DNA from: a virus
Virus record (IMG/VR): IMGVR_UViG_3300005471_000012
Location: 27,149 to 91,148 of that record
Strand: one strand, 5' to 3'
DNA: 64,000 nt
Shown: positions 1 through 27,504 of the stretch, piece after piece
Position numbering within the stretch: position 1 is the first letter of the stretch
How the letters are laid out: the number at the start of each line of letters is the position of its first letter
Made by a program: the position numbers and the translations under genes
Notes under the pieces: model-generated
Database searches by the model: none
What the model was told of the DNA's origin: nothing
What the model saw: the letters and a program-made list of their open reading frames with translations, nothing else

Positions 1-123
1 CGGCTCCCGGGTCACGTGCCGGATGTCAAGGCCGGCGGCACCGATCGAGCCAAGGCCGATCGCCCCGCTGCCGGGGCTGGCCAGCTTGCTGCGCCGTGTC
101 ATCGTCTCGCCGCCTCCCGTCAT
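1..123 (-). CDS. 5' end of an unidentified gene (partial)
   Basis: An ATG at 123 reads left with no stop to the window edge, giving 41 residues that begin MTGGGETMTRRSK and are rich in Gly and Ser. An excellent ribosome binding site (AAGGAGGG on the minus strand, about 134-141) precedes it, and promoter 202-230 points at it with a leader of roughly 70 bases. This supports a real gene, but too little is visible to assign a function. It is the first gene of a leftward unit that continues outside the window. Confidence 0.6.
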   Translation of the reverse strand, partial: MTGGGETMTRRSKLASPGSGAIGLGSIGAAGLDIRHVTREP

Positions 124-201
124 CGCGCCGCCGCCCTCCTTGATCACGATATGCCATCGGGTTAATGGCGTCGGGGCCGACCCGGACGCGCCGCTACGCC
201 G

Positions 202-230
202 ATGATACGCGATTCTGATAACGCTGTCTA
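202..230 (-). promoter_or_regulatory. Repeated sigma70-like promoter, copy 1
   Basis: On the minus strand: -35 TAGACA, 17-bp spacer, -10 TATCAT. It drives the leftward gene starting at 123. The same architecture occurs five more times in the minus arm. The spacer is the most divergent of the set. It lies in the 130-bp gap between that gene and the rightward terminase genes. Confidence 0.75.
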
Positions 231-253
231 GTATCCTCCGAGGAGGTGCCGCC

Positions 254-787
254 ATGCCGCGCAGCCGCACCGTCGCCGATCGTGAACGCGATGCCAAAGC
301 CCTGTCCCTGCGCGCCCGCGGGTACACGCACCGGCAGATTTCCGCGCAGCTCGGCTGGAAATCACCCGCGTCCGCCGTCGGCGCCTGCACCCGCGCCATG
401 CAGGACATGTACCGGGAGGATATAGACAAATGGCGCCAGATTGAGCTGGACAAGCTCGATGACCTGACCCGCGAGGCCTGGGACGCGATGCAGGAAGCCC
501 ACTACCTCGTCTCCCAGGGCAAGGTGGTCAAGGACGACGACGGCACGATGCTCGTCAACGCCGTCGACAAAGTCAGCCAGCTCGGCACGCTTCTGCTGAA
601 GATCAGCGAGTCCCGCCGAAAGCTGCTCGGCATCGACGCCCCGCCGCAGAAGGCGCCGACGCCCGATAATCTTGATGCCGAGATCGAGACGCTGGTCAAG
701 CAGCTTTCGGGTCTGGGCGACGTGCCGAAGCAGGTGGCGGACGGCACGGTGGCCGCTATCGAGAGCGCGGCCCCGCCGGGGGCCTGA
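254..787 (+). CDS. Terminase small subunit (putative)
   Basis: 177 residues, ATG preceded by AGGAGG. The N-terminal 10-45 region reads as a helix-turn-helix (RARGYTHRQISAQLGW), expected for the DNA-recognition domain of a terminase small subunit; the rest is helical with a charged C-terminus. Position directly upstream of the large subunit is the main support. The family itself is too divergent to recognise by eye, so a different DNA-binding protein cannot be excluded. Confidence 0.7.
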   Translation: MPRSRTVADRERDAKALSLRARGYTHRQISAQLGWKSPASAVGACTRAMQDMYREDIDKWRQIELDKLDDLTREAWDAMQEAHYLVSQGKVVKDDDGTMLVNAVDKVSQLGTLLLKISESRRKLLGIDAPPQKAPTPDNLDAEIETLVKQLSGLGDVPKQVADGTVAAIESAAPPGA

Positions 788-794
788 GGCCGCA

Positions 795-3302
795 GTGCCG
801 CAGCCATCGTGGGATCAGCTTCCGCCTCATGCGAAGCAGCAGCTCCGCGACCGGCTCGCGGCTGAGCTGGCGGTGCGGCGCAGTACCACCCCCCGGCCGT
901 GGCGGAAGCTGGCGCGGCCGAAGCAGCTGCCGCCGGACGACCCGCGGCACTGCCTGCCGGATGCGAACGGCTACAAATGCGGGTGCGACAAGCCCGATAT
1001 GACCTTCAATGTCTGGCTCGTGATGGCCGGGCGCGGGCTGGGCAAAACGTGGCAAGGCGCCCAGTGGCTAACGGAACAGGCAATTCGGTATCCAGGGACA
1101 GAGTGGGCCGTGGTGGCCCCAACCTTCAGGGACGTGCGCAAAACGGCTATAGAGGGCACAACGGGCATTCTGGCAGCACTCCAGCCGGGCGAGCTGGCCA
1201 GCTATCACCGCAACGAGCTGATGATCACCCTCGCGGGAGGGTCCCACCTGTTCGGCTACTCGGCCGATAATCCGGAGCGCCTGCGGGGCGCCAACCTGTC
1301 CGGTGCATGGTGCGTCGCCCGGGGGGAACCCGTACTCACATCTCGCGGGCCCGTGCCGATTGAGGACGTGCGACCCGGCATGAGGGTGTGGACGCGGCAG
1401 GGATGGCGCCGGGTGCTCGCGCAGCGGCTGATGGCCCGCGCCGCGCCCGTTGTGCGCGTCGTTACAGACGGAGGGGCGAGCGTCCGGGTCACGGCAGGCC
1501 ACCGGATTTGGACGCAACACGCCGGGTGGATGGAAGCACGAACGCTGGCCCCTGGCGATATTCTTAATGTATGGAATTCGCCTACGGGCCACCGGCCTGG
1601 ATCGAATGGGAGGGCGTCCGCTTCTATCGCCGCAGCAAGAGCGGCCATTACGCGGATCGCACCGGCTGCCTGCTTCACGTCGCCGTCTGGGAGCGCGCCC
1701 ATAAGCGACGGATACCTGACGGCCACGCTGTGCATCACAAGGACGAAGATAAGGTCAACAACGGCGCCGGCAACCTCGAACTGCTCACCAAGGCCGAGCA
1801 CACCAGGCACCATAACCTCACCGAGCCCCGCGGCATTGCCGTCCTCGCCACAGCCGAGCGGTCCGGCATATCGCGCAACTCATGGGCCAACCGGCCGGAG
1901 CGCGATTTCGCCTGTAACGTCTGCGGCACCTCGTTCAAATCCAAGGGCCAGCGGGCCATGTACTGCTCGCCCAACTGCCGCGCCGCCGCCTTCCGCGCTG
2001 ATCACCGCAAACGCGGACAGGACGCGCTGGCCGACCGGCAATGCGAATGGTGCGGCGACAGCTTCACCCCGCCAGACCGGCGCACCGTCTATTGCGGCCC
2101 CGCCTGCCGCCAGAGGGCAGGAGACGGCGCGAAGCGCGCCCGCAACCGCGCACGGCTGGGAATTCCGGCCTGCGCAGCCTGCGGCAACCTGTTCACCCCC
2201 AAGGACGGTCGCCAGCGATTCTGCTCCGGTCTCTGCCGTCAGCGGCATGCGCGTCGCGAGGCTCGAGCCCGCTGGGCGGGCTGACGTATACGACCTCCAG
2301 GTCGAGGGCGTTCACGAGTTCGTCGTCGGCCGCATCCTGGTCCATAACTGCGATGAGCTAGGTTCGTGGCGGTACCCGCAGACCTGGTACGAGGGCCTCA
2401 TGCCCGCCTTGCGGGTAGGCGAGTTCCCCCGGGTGGTCGTCACGACGACCCCCCGACTCGTCCCGCTGATCAGGGACCTGGTCGGCCGCGATGACGGCTC
2501 TGTGCACATTACCCGCGGGTCGACGTGGGAGAACGCCGACAACCTGTCTGCGGCGGCGCTCGCGGAACTCCGGCACCGCTACGGCGGCACGAGGCTGGGC
2601 CGGCAAGAGCTCGAAGGCGAGCTCCTCGAGGACGTTGATGGCGCACTGTGGGCCCGCGATGACATTGACGCGGCCCGCGTGAAGCTCGGCGAGGTGCCGC
2701 AGCTGCACCGCGTCGTCGTCGCGATCGACCCGGCCACCACGTCGGGCGAGGATTCCGACCAGACGGGCATCGTGGTCGTCGGGGAGGGCCCGGGCGGGCA
2801 CGGCTACGTGCTGGCCGACCTGACGTTCCGGGGCACCCCGGATGCGACGATGCGCAAGGCGGTCGGCGCCTACCATCAGTACCAGGCCGACTCGGTCGTG
2901 GCAGAGGTCAACAACGGCGGGGATTACATCCGGTCCCTGCTGCGGACCGTTGACCCGCAGATCCCGTACCGGTCGGTGCGGGCGACCCGCGGCAAGCGGA
3001 CCCGGGCCGAGCCGGTGTCTGCGCTGTACGAACAGCGCAGAATGCACCATGTCGGGGTGTTCCCGGAGCTAGAGGACGAGATGTGCTCGTGGACTCCGGA
3101 TAGCCTCCTGGGCAGCCCGGACCGCATGGACGCACTTGTCTGGGGGTGTACCGAGCTGCGCGGCCTGTCGGTCGGCTCGTGGCGTGAAGCATACGGCGTG
3201 ATCATTTGCGCTACCTGCCAGGAGCCATACATGCCGGAAGGCAAGACGGCCTGCCCGTGGTGCGGCGCCGACGTTCCGGGTGAGGCCGAGGTGCCAGCGT
3301 GA
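795..3302 (+). CDS. terL: Terminase large subunit precursor, interrupted by an intein
   Basis: ATP-driven DNA packaging motor and headful nuclease. The GTG at 795 follows the small-subunit stop by 7 bases and fits the family start better than upstream codons. Precursor 835 residues. Walker A GRGLGKT lies near residues 79-85. The Walker B acids DE follow directly on the intein junction (GAW / CDELGSW). The RNase-H-like nuclease shows VVAIDPATTSGED and later SPDRMDALVW. Residues 173-518 are an intein; removing it gives a 489-residue protein, normal for TerL. The C-terminus carries a CxxC...CxxC zinc ribbon (CATCQEPY...CPWCGADVP), unusual for the family. The stop overlaps the next start (GTGA). 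Confidence 0.93.
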   Translation: MPQPSWDQLPPHAKQQLRDRLAAELAVRRSTTPRPWRKLARPKQLPPDDPRHCLPDANGYKCGCDKPDMTFNVWLVMAGRGLGKTWQGAQWLTEQAIRYPGTEWAVVAPTFRDVRKTAIEGTTGILAALQPGELASYHRNELMITLAGGSHLFGYSADNPERLRGANLSGAWCVARGEPVLTSRGPVPIEDVRPGMRVWTRQGWRRVLAQRLMARAAPVVRVVTDGGASVRVTAGHRIWTQHAGWMEARTLAPGDILNVWNSPTGHRPGSNGRASASIAAARAAITRIAPAACFTSPSGSAPISDGYLTATLCITRTKIRSTTAPATSNCSPRPSTPGTITSPSPAALPSSPQPSGPAYRATHGPTGRSAISPVTSAAPRSNPRASGPCTARPTAAPPPSALITANADRTRWPTGNANGAATASPRQTGAPSIAAPPAARGQETARSAPATAHGWEFRPAQPAATCSPPRTVASDSAPVSAVSGMRVARLEPAGRADVYDLQVEGVHEFVVGRILVHNCDELGSWRYPQTWYEGLMPALRVGEFPRVVVTTTPRLVPLIRDLVGRDDGSVHITRGSTWENADNLSAAALAELRHRYGGTRLGRQELEGELLEDVDGALWARDDIDAARVKLGEVPQLHRVVVAIDPATTSGEDSDQTGIVVVGEGPGGHGYVLADLTFRGTPDATMRKAVGAYHQYQADSVVAEVNNGGDYIRSLLRTVDPQIPYRSVRATRGKRTRAEPVSALYEQRRMHHVGVFPELEDEMCSWTPDSLLGSPDRMDALVWGCTELRGLSVGSWREAYGVIICATCQEPYMPEGKTACPWCGADVPGEAEVPA
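1311..2348 (+). mobile_element. Intein in TerL, inserted at the Walker B motif
   Basis: Block A is CVARGEPVLTSRGPV at the N-terminus. Block B is VRVTAGHRIWT, with the Thr and His of the TxxH motif. Block F is VYDLQVEGVHEFVVGR, and the end is ILVHN followed by Cys+1 of the C-extein. Cys1, penultimate His, terminal Asn and Cys+1 are all present, so splicing competence is expected. The insertion point next to the catalytic Asp-Glu is a typical conserved-site choice for inteins. The 346-residue intein has splicing halves of about 86 and 35-40 residues; the roughly 220 residues between them are Ala/Pro/Ser/Thr-rich, without a recognisable domain. The same DNA encodes an HNH protein in another frame (1571-2284). 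Confidence 0.9.
1571..2284 (+). CDS. HNH homing endonuclease nested in the intein in another frame
   Basis: 237 residues starting ATG at 1571; a TAA at 1565-1567 closes the frame immediately upstream, so it has its own start. Residues about 55-80 contain the HNH core (HAVHHKDEDKVNNGAGNLEL). Three treble-clef-like zinc fingers follow, each CxxC plus YCSxxCR-type (CNVCGTSF...YCSPNCR, CEWCGDSF...YCGPACR, CAACGNLF...FCSGLCR), fitting a DNA-recognition arm. No good ribosome binding site is visible. Its stop lies inside the coding sequence of the C-terminal splicing block. Likely role: cleaving intein-free terL alleles for homing. Confidence 0.88.
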   Translation: MEFAYGPPAWIEWEGVRFYRRSKSGHYADRTGCLLHVAVWERAHKRRIPDGHAVHHKDEDKVNNGAGNLELLTKAEHTRHHNLTEPRGIAVLATAERSGISRNSWANRPERDFACNVCGTSFKSKGQRAMYCSPNCRAAAFRADHRKRGQDALADRQCEWCGDSFTPPDRRTVYCGPACRQRAGDGAKRARNRARLGIPACAACGNLFTPKDGRQRFCSGLCRQRHARREARARWAG

Positions 3303-3598
3303 CGCGAACCCCGGGCACCGGCACCTGGACCGAGGCGTACACGCCCCCTGCGCGGACCTACACGGGCGTCTGCAAGGGCGGCCCGGCGGACGGGCAGCGT
3401 CATACCCTCCCGGCCCGGCTGCCCCCGCAGGTGCGGTTCTACGCCCTCCCGGAGGCCCGCCGCGGCCGGTCCGTGGTCCTGTCCAGGTACGTGCTGATTG
3501 GCATGTTCACGGCCGGGGAACTGACGTACAACTACCAGGGGACTTACGAAAAGCCCGGCCCGGTACTCGGCGACAAGGCCAACCCCGCATGGTCGTGA
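3299..3598 (+). CDS. Hypothetical protein, 99 residues
   Basis: GTG start overlaps the TerL stop by four bases, indicating translational coupling. The sequence alternates short beta-prone segments (RSVVLSRYVLIGMF, ELTYNYQGTYE) without a motif I recognise. It ends inside the start of the downstream HNH gene. Position suggests a small packaging-region accessory, but that is a guess. Confidence 0.75.
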   Translation: MTRTPGTGTWTEAYTPPARTYTGVCKGGPADGQRHTLPARLPPQVRFYALPEARRGRSVVLSRYVLIGMFTAGELTYNYQGTYEKPGPVLGDKANPAWS

Positions 3599-4263
3599 CC
3601 GCCGTGACGGCGAAGACGTGCCCACGGTGCGGCCTCGACAAGCCGCTTAGCTACTTCCACCGCGACGACAGTCGGCGCGATGGCCTGCAGCCCTACTGCA
3701 GGAAGTGCAAGCGGGAACTCGGCAGGGCGCTAGCAGCCGGCCGCGCCGCCCGGCCGGCGGAAGTCGACCTGACCACTACCAAGCGATGCTGTCGCTGCGG
3801 CGAGACGAAGGCGCTAGCCGAGTTCCACCGGAACCGCCGGACTGCGCACGGCGTCCAGACTTACTGCAAGCCCTGCATGAAAACGGTCAACAAGGCATGG
3901 TCCGAAGCTCACCCTCGCCGACGGCAGGAGATCAGTCGGCAGGCTGCCGAGCGGCGCTGGGAGAAACGGCTGCTAGCAGCAGCCGGCCGCCGCGCCGCCC
4001 GCGACGGGATCGCGTTCACGATCACCGAGGCCGACGTCACCATCCCGGAGACCTGCCCCGTCCTGGGCATGCCGCTTGTGATGGGTCACGGCCGGCACGG
4101 ACCTGATAGCGCCAGCCTCGACAAGATCGACCCAATGCTCGGCTACATCCCCGGAAACGTGCACGTCATCAGCTTGCGGGCAAACATGCTCAAGTCGAAC
4201 GCAACCCCCGGCGAACTGCTGAAACTCGCCGAATGGGTCTTGCAAGGAGAATCCCCCAGATAA
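3589..4263 (+). CDS. Zinc-ribbon HNH endonuclease
   Basis: 224 residues. Two tandem zinc ribbons open the protein: CPRCGLDKPLSYFHR...YCRKCK and CCRCGETKALAEFHR...YCKPCM. A basic helical linker leads to a C-terminal HNH-type nuclease with CPVLGMPL, SLDKIDPMLGYIPGN and VISLRANMLK, as in recombination-endonuclease-VII-like and homing HNH proteins. It overlaps the upstream gene by 10 bases, and ATG 3589 is the first start that keeps the whole ribbon. HNH proteins beside terminases are frequent and often assist packaging; a selfish free-standing homing role is equally possible. Confidence 0.88.
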   Translation: MVVTAVTAKTCPRCGLDKPLSYFHRDDSRRDGLQPYCRKCKRELGRALAAGRAARPAEVDLTTTKRCCRCGETKALAEFHRNRRTAHGVQTYCKPCMKTVNKAWSEAHPRRRQEISRQAAERRWEKRLLAAAGRRAARDGIAFTITEADVTIPETCPVLGMPLVMGHGRHGPDSASLDKIDPMLGYIPGNVHVISLRANMLKSNATPGELLKLAEWVLQGESPR

Positions 4264-4279
4264 GGGGGGGCGCTCAGGG

Positions 4280-4429
4280 ATGGGTGTCCGGCCTGGCAAA
4301 CGCTGCGGCGGCAAGGCCGGCGGGCGGCCACAGCCCGGAAGTGGCTCCCTGCCCTCCCGTCGTCACGGTAAAAGCCGGCGGGGCGCCAGCCGCCTGCGCG
4401 GCTGGCGTCCCGTCAGCCACGGCAACTGA
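4280..4429 (+). CDS. Possible 49-residue basic peptide
   Basis: An ATG nine bases after a GGGGGGG tract opens a frame rich in Arg, Gly and Ser (GKRCGGKAGGRP, RRHGKSRRGASR) that ends 12 bases before the next gene. It fills an otherwise empty 180-base gap. Composition could equally come from chance in GC-rich DNA, and an inverted repeat lies inside it. Confidence 0.3.
   Translation: MGVRPGKRCGGKAGGRPQPGSGSLPSRRHGKSRRGASRLRGWRPVSHGN
4384..4407 (+). repeat. Perfect 9-bp stem-loop
   Basis: CGCCAGCCG (4384-4392) pairs with CGGCTGGCG (4399-4407) around a six-base loop. No T tract follows, so a processing or attenuation hairpin is more likely than an intrinsic terminator. Confidence 0.5.
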
Positions 4430-4441
4430 AAGGCTGGCCAG

Positions 4442-4636
4442 ATGGCAGACGCAACCGCCGCGAAGGTGATCGCAGCGCTCCGCACCCGGTCCGACGCCCT
4501 CCTGGCCGGCGCGCAGCATCTTTACGACAGCGAGATCACCGCCGGTGACCTGGCGATGGTGCCGGTCATGCGGGAGCTAGCCGGCGAATTCTCCGCCCTG
4601 GCGCGCGAGATCGAAGGCCTCGCGGACGGGAAGTAA
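4442..4636 (+). CDS. Small helical hypothetical protein
   Basis: 64 residues, ATG preceded by GAAAGG. Almost entirely helical (KVIAALRTRSDALLAGAQHL, MRELAGEFSALAREIEGL) with heptad-like hydrophobics. No known family recognised. It sits between the terminase group and the 126-residue gene. Confidence 0.7.
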   Translation: MADATAAKVIAALRTRSDALLAGAQHLYDSEITAGDLAMVPVMRELAGEFSALAREIEGLADGK

Positions 4637-4665
4637 GCAATGGCCGGCGCCGTGACGGGGGCAAC

Positions 4666-5046
4666 GTGACCTGGGACGGTGACCTGGACGCCACGCCGCT
4701 CAGCGAGGACATGGCCCCGGCTGAGATCAACCGGGTGATGATCGCGACCCGGCGGATCGCGTGGGCCAAAGTCAGCGAGCTGCGGGACCTGGCGGCCCGG
4801 AAAGCTGAGGCGAAACGCGCGGCGAAAGTCGCTTACGCGAAAGCGCTGCTTTCCGCGGACGGCCCGGTGGAGATCCGCAAAGCACATGCGGTGATCGCCG
4901 CGGCGGACGCGCAGTTTGACTACGACGTGGCCGAGGAACTGGTGACGGCGTGCCGGGAGGCGCTGGACGCCGTGCACGACGACTTCGAGGCGGTCCGCTC
5001 GATTAACGCCGACTACCGGGCCGAGCGGTCAGGCCGGGCTTCCTGA
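4666..5046 (+). CDS. Coiled-coil hypothetical protein
   Basis: 126 residues from GTG after GGGGGCAAC. A long charged helix (RKAEAKRAAKVAYAKALL, AVIAAADAQFDYDVAEELV) fits a coiled coil, seen in small phage virion or DNA-associated proteins. Last gene of the leftmost plus cluster; it converges on the minus-strand gene ending at 5097 across a 50-base gap with two 5-bp stems and no clear terminator. Confidence 0.75.
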   Translation: MTWDGDLDATPLSEDMAPAEINRVMIATRRIAWAKVSELRDLAARKAEAKRAAKVAYAKALLSADGPVEIRKAHAVIAAADAQFDYDVAEELVTACREALDAVHDDFEAVRSINADYRAERSGRAS

Positions 5047-26718: not shown

Positions 26719-27504
26719 GTGTGCCTGAACTGCGGCTGCCTCATGCCCAATGCGGACCACGGTCATCCCGGCAATTTCCTGCTGGCCGAACTGGAGAAGG
26801 CCGCCGCGGCAGGCGGCACCAGCGCCGCTGAGGCAGCCTGGAACATTCCCCGCACCCTCACGGTGGCCACGTCGCCCGCGTGGCCACCTGAGCCGTATCA
26901 CGCGGCCTCGCGGCCCACCCTGGCATGGGACGTGGACGGCATCCTCGCGTTCACCGCCGAAGCGATCGTCGCCGCGCTGAACGCCCGGTTCGACACCGGC
27001 TACGACGCCATGTCGCAAGGATTCTTCCCCGGCACGTTCGTCTCCTCGGCGCTCCCGGCCGAGGAGGCCGCCTGGCTCGGCCAGCAACTCAGCTCAGGCG
27101 AGTTCGGCATCTACGGGGCGTGCGCACCAGACTGGCACGCGATCGACACGATGCTTGACGCGTCTGCGGCGGGCTACCCGACGGTGATCATCACAGAACG
27201 GCCCGCCGTGGTGGCCGACCAGACACGTTCGTGGCTGCGGTCGTGGACCGGGCAGCAACCGCCGCAAGTCGTAGCCGTCGGCCGCGGCAACAAGCCCGCC
27301 TACATGGGAGCCCGGTTCGGGCCCGGCAACCCCGCCATCCTGGTCGACGACAACCCGGCCGTCAGGATGACCATCGCCCGTGAGGGCATCGAGGTGTGGA
27401 CCCCGCAGCGGCCGTACACGCCGGCGCCCGGCCGGCCGCATGCGCGGACATTCGGCAACTGGCCGGCAGCACGGTACTGGCTCGGGATCAGCCCCGCCAG
27501 CTAA
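26719..27504 (+). CDS. HAD-superfamily phosphatase
   Basis: 261 residues from GTG. A short Cys-containing N-terminal piece (CLNCGCLMPNADHG) precedes the HAD core: motif I TLAWDVDGILA (nucleophile Asp in DxD), motif II VIITERP, motif III/IV around NKPAYM and ILVDDNPAV. Hydrolysis of a phosphorylated small molecule or nucleotide is expected. In phages such enzymes sometimes trim nucleotides; substrate unknown. A second, unrelated-length HAD protein occurs at 53295. Confidence 0.82.
   Translation: MCLNCGCLMPNADHGHPGNFLLAELEKAAAAGGTSAAEAAWNIPRTLTVATSPAWPPEPYHAASRPTLAWDVDGILAFTAEAIVAALNARFDTGYDAMSQGFFPGTFVSSALPAEEAAWLGQQLSSGEFGIYGACAPDWHAIDTMLDASAAGYPTVIITERPAVVADQTRSWLRSWTGQQPPQVVAVGRGNKPAYMGARFGPGNPAILVDDNPAVRMTIAREGIEVWTPQRPYTPAPGRPHARTFGNWPAARYWLGISPAS

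Follow-up and report, generated by a model that had tools for sequence, protein, structure and literature searches.

The window analysed here, a 64,000-nucleotide stretch (positions 27,149 to 91,148) of the 91,148-base IMG/VR virus record IMGVR_UViG_3300005471_000012, carries a gene for the terminase protein TerL that is interrupted in its Walker B site by an intein. The DNA between the two splicing halves of this intein also encodes an HNH endonuclease in a different reading frame. The locus comprises the following features.

795..3302, + strand: TerL precursor gene (N-extein, intein and C-extein), a single open frame of 835 amino acids
795..1310, + strand: N-extein of TerL, 172 amino acids, with LSGAW at its C-terminus
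1029-1049, + strand: Walker A motif GRGLGKT of the N-extein
1311..2348, + strand: intein, 346 amino acids from Cys1 to HN; the native Cys of the Walker B CDE is the +1 residue
1311..1574, + strand: N-terminal splicing half (IN, residues 1-88), blocks A-B, with T61xxH64 at 1491-1502
1565..1567, + strand: TAA in the HNH frame directly ahead of the nested ATG
1571..2284, + strand: nested homing-type HNH endonuclease gene, 237 amino acids, in frame -1 relative to TerL, with its own ATG and TGA
1575..2240, + strand: intein-frame spacer, rich in Ala, Pro, Ser and Thr and predicted to be disordered; the same DNA is the HNH gene in the other frame
1670..1807, + strand: HNH_3 catalytic core (HNH residues 34-79; Pfam HNH_3 6.6e-12)
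1913..2235, + strand: Cys-pair, zinc-finger-like region of the HNH protein (C115-C136, C158-C179 and a third CxxC pair)
2241..2348, + strand: C-terminal splicing half (IC, residues 311-346), blocks F and G, last residues VHN
2349..3302, + strand: C-extein of TerL, starting with C-D-E (the Walker B acidic pair) and containing the RNaseH-like nuclease domain

The protein read from the TerL frame matches Pfam Terminase_6N (4.6e-14) and Terminase_6C (1.5e-18), with the intein domains lying between the terminal ATPase and nuclease domains. The inserted segment exhibits the features of a class 1 intein, including Cys1 with block A, a block B TAGH motif, block F, a terminal VHN and Cys+1, which is the residue preceding the Walker B D-E. 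It is recognized by Pfam Hint_2 (2.2e-04) and Intein_splicing (7.4e-06, under that family's curated cut-off), and its match to TIGR01443 (intein_Cterm) exceeds the cut-off of that model. In the intein alignment, Cys1 is nearly invariant, and T61 and H64 are invariant in 32 sequences. The AlphaFold2 model of the intein frame contains a confident HINT fold that is assembled from residues 1-88 and 311-346 (predicted local distance difference test score (pLDDT) of 87-98) and is separated by a disordered stretch (about 45); the closest PDB match of the predicted fold is the gp41-1 intein (E 6.4e-6). Two contigs with an empty site, L215 and L216, encode TerL proteins that are 62-63% identical to that of the window and uninterrupted at the site (GAW/CDEL and GAW/ADEL). 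Because these proteins are continuous across the site, the intein boundaries at 1310/1311 and 2348/2349 are exact. A group I or group II intron at the locus is ruled out by an Rfam scan of 1000-2700, which gave no match at E <= 0.5. The comparisons confirm a class-1-type intein within the Walker B site of the window TerL, and splicing is predicted. The first-pass annotation had identified this intein by its Cys1, TxxH and HN/Cys+1 signatures, and its coordinates (1311-2348) are upheld by the Pfam and TIGR01443 matches, the alignment and the empty sites. Its length of 489 residues for the spliced TerL agrees with the 172 + 317 computed here.

What is the nature of the gene that shares its DNA with the intein spacer? 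The same annotation had read it as a complete zinc-finger HNH gene that is out of frame with TerL and has its own start and stop, while the intein frame stays open through it as Ala/Pro/Ser-rich sequence, and both readings held. The TAA at 1565..1567 closes the HNH frame ahead of the ATG, and therefore the HNH frame cannot be entered from the upstream intein half. All family-invariant residues (H36, H55, H56, D58, N63, N68, H77, H81, C115, C118, C132 and C136) are kept in the window protein, and its predicted structure folds well (mean 84). The closest solved structure is that of I-HmuI (PDB 1u3e; sequence profile E 1.5e-4), which also tops a fold search that returned weak matches only (E 0.02). 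I-HmuI is carried by a group I intron RNA, whereas the window region lacks an Rfam match. In descriptions of inteins, the endonuclease is a domain encoded in the same frame as the splicing domains. The window departs from this organization in that its HNH lies in the -1 frame.

The same layout recurs in many other phages. Scans with the HNH query covered IMG/VR, GTDB genomes and phage records and yielded 119 distinct motif-bearing HNH open reading frames (ORFs), and the three frames surrounding each ORF were then searched with IN and IC models built from the loci found. At 69 distinct loci, IN and IC share a stop-free frame, +1 relative to the HNH; the window is counted among them, and at least 68 further phage loci share its layout. 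In the representatives tested, the match to Pfam Intein_splicing, a model independent of these loci, extends across the HNH. The host protein is TerL in all cases tested, with insertions at the Walker B site, just past Walker B or near the nuclease aspartate. Three isolates exhibit the nested layout (Tetrasphaera phage TJE1, Acinetobacter phage Highwayman and Rhodobacteraceae phage MD07), and their annotation gives TerL only. One freshwater clade accounts for about 29 of the 69 loci, and the bacterial genome scan contributed few members, of which L197, L198 and L202 are nested. On three contigs (L007, L016 and L072), a single TerL contains two inteins, each with an out-of-frame HNH (L134 on the L007 contig, 1155-4373; L151 on the L016 contig, 1-2832; L072, 3279-6428). 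The TerL of L015 (1570-4746) contains an intein whose HNH is read in the remaining frame, with the host frame at +2 relative to the HNH, and its layout probably arose independently because of this difference in frame.

The two frames are constrained differently. With stop expectations computed by synonymous codon shuffling of the HNH, the intein frame across the HNH at the 69 loci has 0 stops against 103 expected (120 when the whole HNH match is counted), and the third frame has 907 against 960. Ten HNH ORFs without an intein contain 67 stops against 62 expected, and the counts in six relatives with a broken TerL likewise agree with expectation. The intein frame is thus kept free of stops at exactly those loci that depend on it for cis-splicing and has lost its openness in relatives with an already broken TerL, which amounts to a natural experiment on overlapping coding. 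Over 435 pairs, differences at the three HNH codon positions average 0.26, 0.22 and 0.53, and the HNH frame retains 68% amino acid identity, compared with 39% for the intein frame; the window and L116, which is on the same contig as L002, are 68% and 40% identical, respectively. The concentration of substitutions at the wobble position, together with the higher identity of the HNH frame, therefore indicates that the nuclease is under purifying selection. The intein-frame spacer is constrained mainly to remain open, and its Ala/Pro/Ser character follows from the coincidence of its second codon position with the wobble position of a GC-rich HNH gene.

Signals for separate expression of the nuclease are found across the family. 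Anti-Shine-Dalgarno pairing at the first candidate nested ATGs is -5.8, compared with -3.4 in shuffles (p 3e-11) and -1.6 at internal ATGs. Moreover, a stop in the HNH frame separates IN from the HNH at 39 of the 69 loci, including the window, and internal initiation is therefore favoured over frameshifting.

Evidence of mobility comes from a comparison of intein-bearing and empty TerLs. Among freshwater TerLs related to the L061 and L029 subgroup, 16 of 159 have the intein, and all 16 have the HNH in the same -1 offset and Cys+1; the residue at the empty site in these relatives is Leu (92), Cys (41) or Ala (10). The C-extein of the intein-bearing L223 is 98% identical to those of four empty TerLs (L224-L227), from which it differs at 13-15 of the 54 nucleotides directly following the insertion but at 20-38 of the next 846 (p 3e-6 to 9e-11). 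Within those first 54 nucleotides L223 is identical to the intein-bearing allele L222, and the tract also turns Leu+1 into Cys. This tract of about 54 nucleotides would be the expected trace of copying from an occupied allele after a cut, that is, of co-conversion by homing. HNH distances correlate with splicing-domain distances (Mantel r = 0.90), and therefore the HNH and the splicing domain travel together.

Thus, we propose that the window contains a mobile TerL intein with a homing endonuclease overprinted in the -1 frame between its splicing halves, a reading that we hold to be highly probable. Ribosomes reading TerL would traverse the nuclease DNA in the other frame and produce a long disordered linker; the two HINT halves would then fold together and splice out the whole 346-residue segment, restoring the Walker B site of TerL. 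Ribosomes starting at the nested ATG inside the message would yield the free 237-residue HNH nuclease, which may cut terL copies that lack the intein, at the site of insertion. With the occupied copy as template, repair would then insert the element and convert the adjacent codons, supplying the Cys+1 that is required for splicing. In the best-supported interpretation, which the first-pass annotation had already suggested, one locus would encode both a spliceable TerL and a free nuclease, and a single DNA stretch would be shared by two proteins with separate jobs, a splicing element in an essential packaging motor and a selfish nuclease.

The architecture, its conservation, the constraint on both frames, the empty sites and the co-conversion in a related subgroup are computed observations, and several points weigh against the interpretation built on them. 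The support is computational throughout; splicing, internal initiation and cleavage at the empty site are steps that we infer. The IN and IC models derive from the same loci that they detect, although Pfam agrees with them. Since the loci are related, a combined probability for their open frames overstates independence and serves as a description. In the window alone the intein frame stays open in about 5% of shuffles (1.9 stops expected, p = 0.054), which for this one locus is no more than suggestive of a non-chance origin. The nested start of the window has a weak Shine-Dalgarno match (-1.9 kcal/mol), and a single close relative of the window was located (L002/L116, one contig). Co-conversion was observed in a related subgroup, from which we infer the mobility of the window's own element.

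Could the nested HNH have another role, or none? Its free-standing relatives adjoin terminase genes, several of them between TerL and portal, and the HNH might accordingly be a DNA-packaging cofactor that is stored in the intein, comparable to the HNH proteins beside TerL in HK97-type phages, instead of a homing nuclease. This is very unlikely, given that no relative of the window HNH was found in the examined DNA of the empty-site contigs L215 and L216, that the presence of the HNH tracks the intein, that the co-conversion tract adjoins the insertion and that related HNHs occur out of frame in DNA methylases (L166 and L173). Homing endonucleases often degenerate, and this tendency, together with the weak start signal in the window, would suit a decaying relic beside an intein that alone is functional. 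However, every invariant catalytic and Cys residue is intact in the window, and the comparison with L116/L002 shows the HNH frame to be the better conserved of the two, which makes a relic quite improbable.

The remaining alternatives return the HNH to the intein frame. Programmed frameshifting, -1 into the HNH and then back, would make it an in-frame domain of an ordinary HNH intein, in line with the constant frame offset and with the existence of in-frame HNH_3 inteins (L164 and L120 in our survey; cyanophage CL131, PMC6293099). We regard this as very unlikely because the HNH frame contains a stop between IN and the HNH at the 39 loci mentioned above, the HNH terminates at its own stop ahead of the IC end and the nested start is Shine-Dalgarno-enriched across the family; those intervening stops mostly exclude a frameshift fusion, with no slippery-site search made. 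Two compensating indels could likewise mask an ordinary in-frame HNH intein, an assembly or sequencing artefact that the first-pass annotation had itself raised, and the window is known from a single metagenomic contig. However, the same offset is found in 69 loci and in the isolates TJE1, Highwayman and MD07, and the substitutions follow a wobble-position pattern. Paired indels are ruled out by this replication in many independently assembled contigs and sequenced isolates, and the probability of an artefact is negligible. On these sequence comparisons, the layout is confirmed as a real and widespread design as opposed to a sequencing slip.

The overprinted intein shares features with several known systems. 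Fractured genes, in which split inteins flank a free homing endonuclease, were reportedly described by Dassa et al. in 2009. They share with the window the order of IN, endonuclease gene and IC and a free-standing nuclease, but their host gene is broken and splicing has to occur in trans, whereas in the window the TerL frame runs without interruption from 795 to 3302, across the nuclease gene. A split intein with an HNH is also found in MIJ3 PolB (PMC6892783). The ShiLan domain of phage methylases is a published case of an out-of-frame HNH that has no intein around it (Arsenault, Gosselin and Gogarten, 2025, PMC11855218), and the insertions in Pacc40 gp60 (PMC11855218) and Applejack (PMC12613952) are of the same kind. 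The ShiLan and Pacc40 gp60 elements resemble the window in that a phage gene with an open frame of its own conceals an out-of-frame HNH or DNA-binding ORF, and ShiLan has the patchy distribution that homing predicts, as do the elements studied here. In contrast, ShiLan resides in a DNA methylase, has no splicing domain and is thought to stay in the protein, whereas in the window a full HINT intein, with both IN and IC, surrounds the HNH in the essential TerL. In two IMG/VR contigs, L166 (2517-4550) and L173 (2757-4550), a DNA methylase gene in which no intein was detected has an HNH nested in its -1 frame; both are further ShiLan-like elements. The intein of the cyanophage CL131 dCTP deaminase, which was shown to self-excise (PMC6293099), shares the HINT and HNH_3 composite in a phage gene with L164, L120 and the window, but the HNH is fused in the intein frame in CL131, L164 and L120. 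Mycobacteriophage TerL inteins also lie near Walker B (e.g. TerL1-e, in Walker B), and both splicing and DNA cleavage have been demonstrated for some of them (Kelley et al., 2016, PMC5050341); the portion of that article consulted describes no out-of-frame nuclease.

The first-pass annotation knew of no described example. Our literature search found no intact cis-spliced intein with an overprinted nuclease, although a preprint on Actinobacteriophage inteins of non-canonical architecture (Gosselin et al., bioRxiv 2025.01.02.630785) might describe one. The arrangement is nevertheless not unique, as the 69 loci demonstrate, and its intein-less version is in print (PMC11855218). The element without a precedent in that search is the out-of-frame HNH inside a complete intein; ShiLan without an intein, in-frame HNH inteins and fractured genes were already known.

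Relatives of the window element also occur in broken terminase genes. In L047, L008, L003/L004, L131, L133, L136 and CL2, IN forms the end of TerL and is followed by the HNH ORF and then by IC, which opens a separate ORF; BL3 has an HNH remnant, with IC in the next gene. These loci are fractured genes whose inteins are presumed to be split. The annotated TerL of Lactobacillus phage CL2 (L210; 506-1954, 1967-2590 and 2586-2687) ends in IN and is followed by the HNH, and that of Brochothrix phage BL3 (L213; 727-2607) ends in the intein N-half, which precedes the HNH remnant. In both, the C-half and the last TerL residues lie in a separate ORF that is unannotated or hypothetical, and these are probable natural split-intein terminases. 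Vibrio phage 1.238.A (L047, 245-3973) has a TerL with a LAGLIDADG intein and a second, fractured intein, and its 'hedgehog/hint domain protein' coding sequence is the C-half bearing the TerL C-terminus.

In the HNH tree, the fractured L008 groups with the open L011 and L090 (support 100/96), and therefore open and fractured states interconvert within a clade. Nested, free-standing and fractured copies are mixed, and the supported branches force at least five changes, while many branches are long and unsupported. This intermingling speaks against a single origin of the nested state, within the limits that the long, unsupported branches set on the direction and number of origins. One pair of close HNH relatives, L179 (1589-2005) and L122 (3899-4327), comprises a copy nested in a TerL intein and an apparently free-standing copy and may reflect a recent change of state.

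The nuclease depends on no frame but its own, so one stop in the intein frame would be enough to make a fractured split-intein gene of a cis-spliced one. All three states exist today, the open one in L011, for example, the fractured one in L008, which belongs to the same supported HNH clade, and the free-standing one in other relatives. We tentatively suggest, with slightly less than even confidence, that these elements constitute a widespread and undescribed class of mobile inteins in phage terminases, with a homing nuclease overprinted in the -1 frame, and are a natural source of split inteins. Such a class suggests a route by which free-standing HNH genes could join inteins without a fusion step, as well as a possible origin of split inteins, which are widely used tools. 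It also implies that many phage TerL annotations in databases conceal an unannotated nuclease gene.

Two further observations concern neighbouring or compound elements. L020, on the L090 contig, contains a 1539-codon ORF (102-4718) with both a LAGLIDADG intein and an out-of-frame HNH intein. Just 3' of TerL in the window, an ORF at 3592-4260 encodes several CxxC pairs and has weak Pfam matches only (Stc1 and DUF6510); it looks like a free-standing endonuclease.
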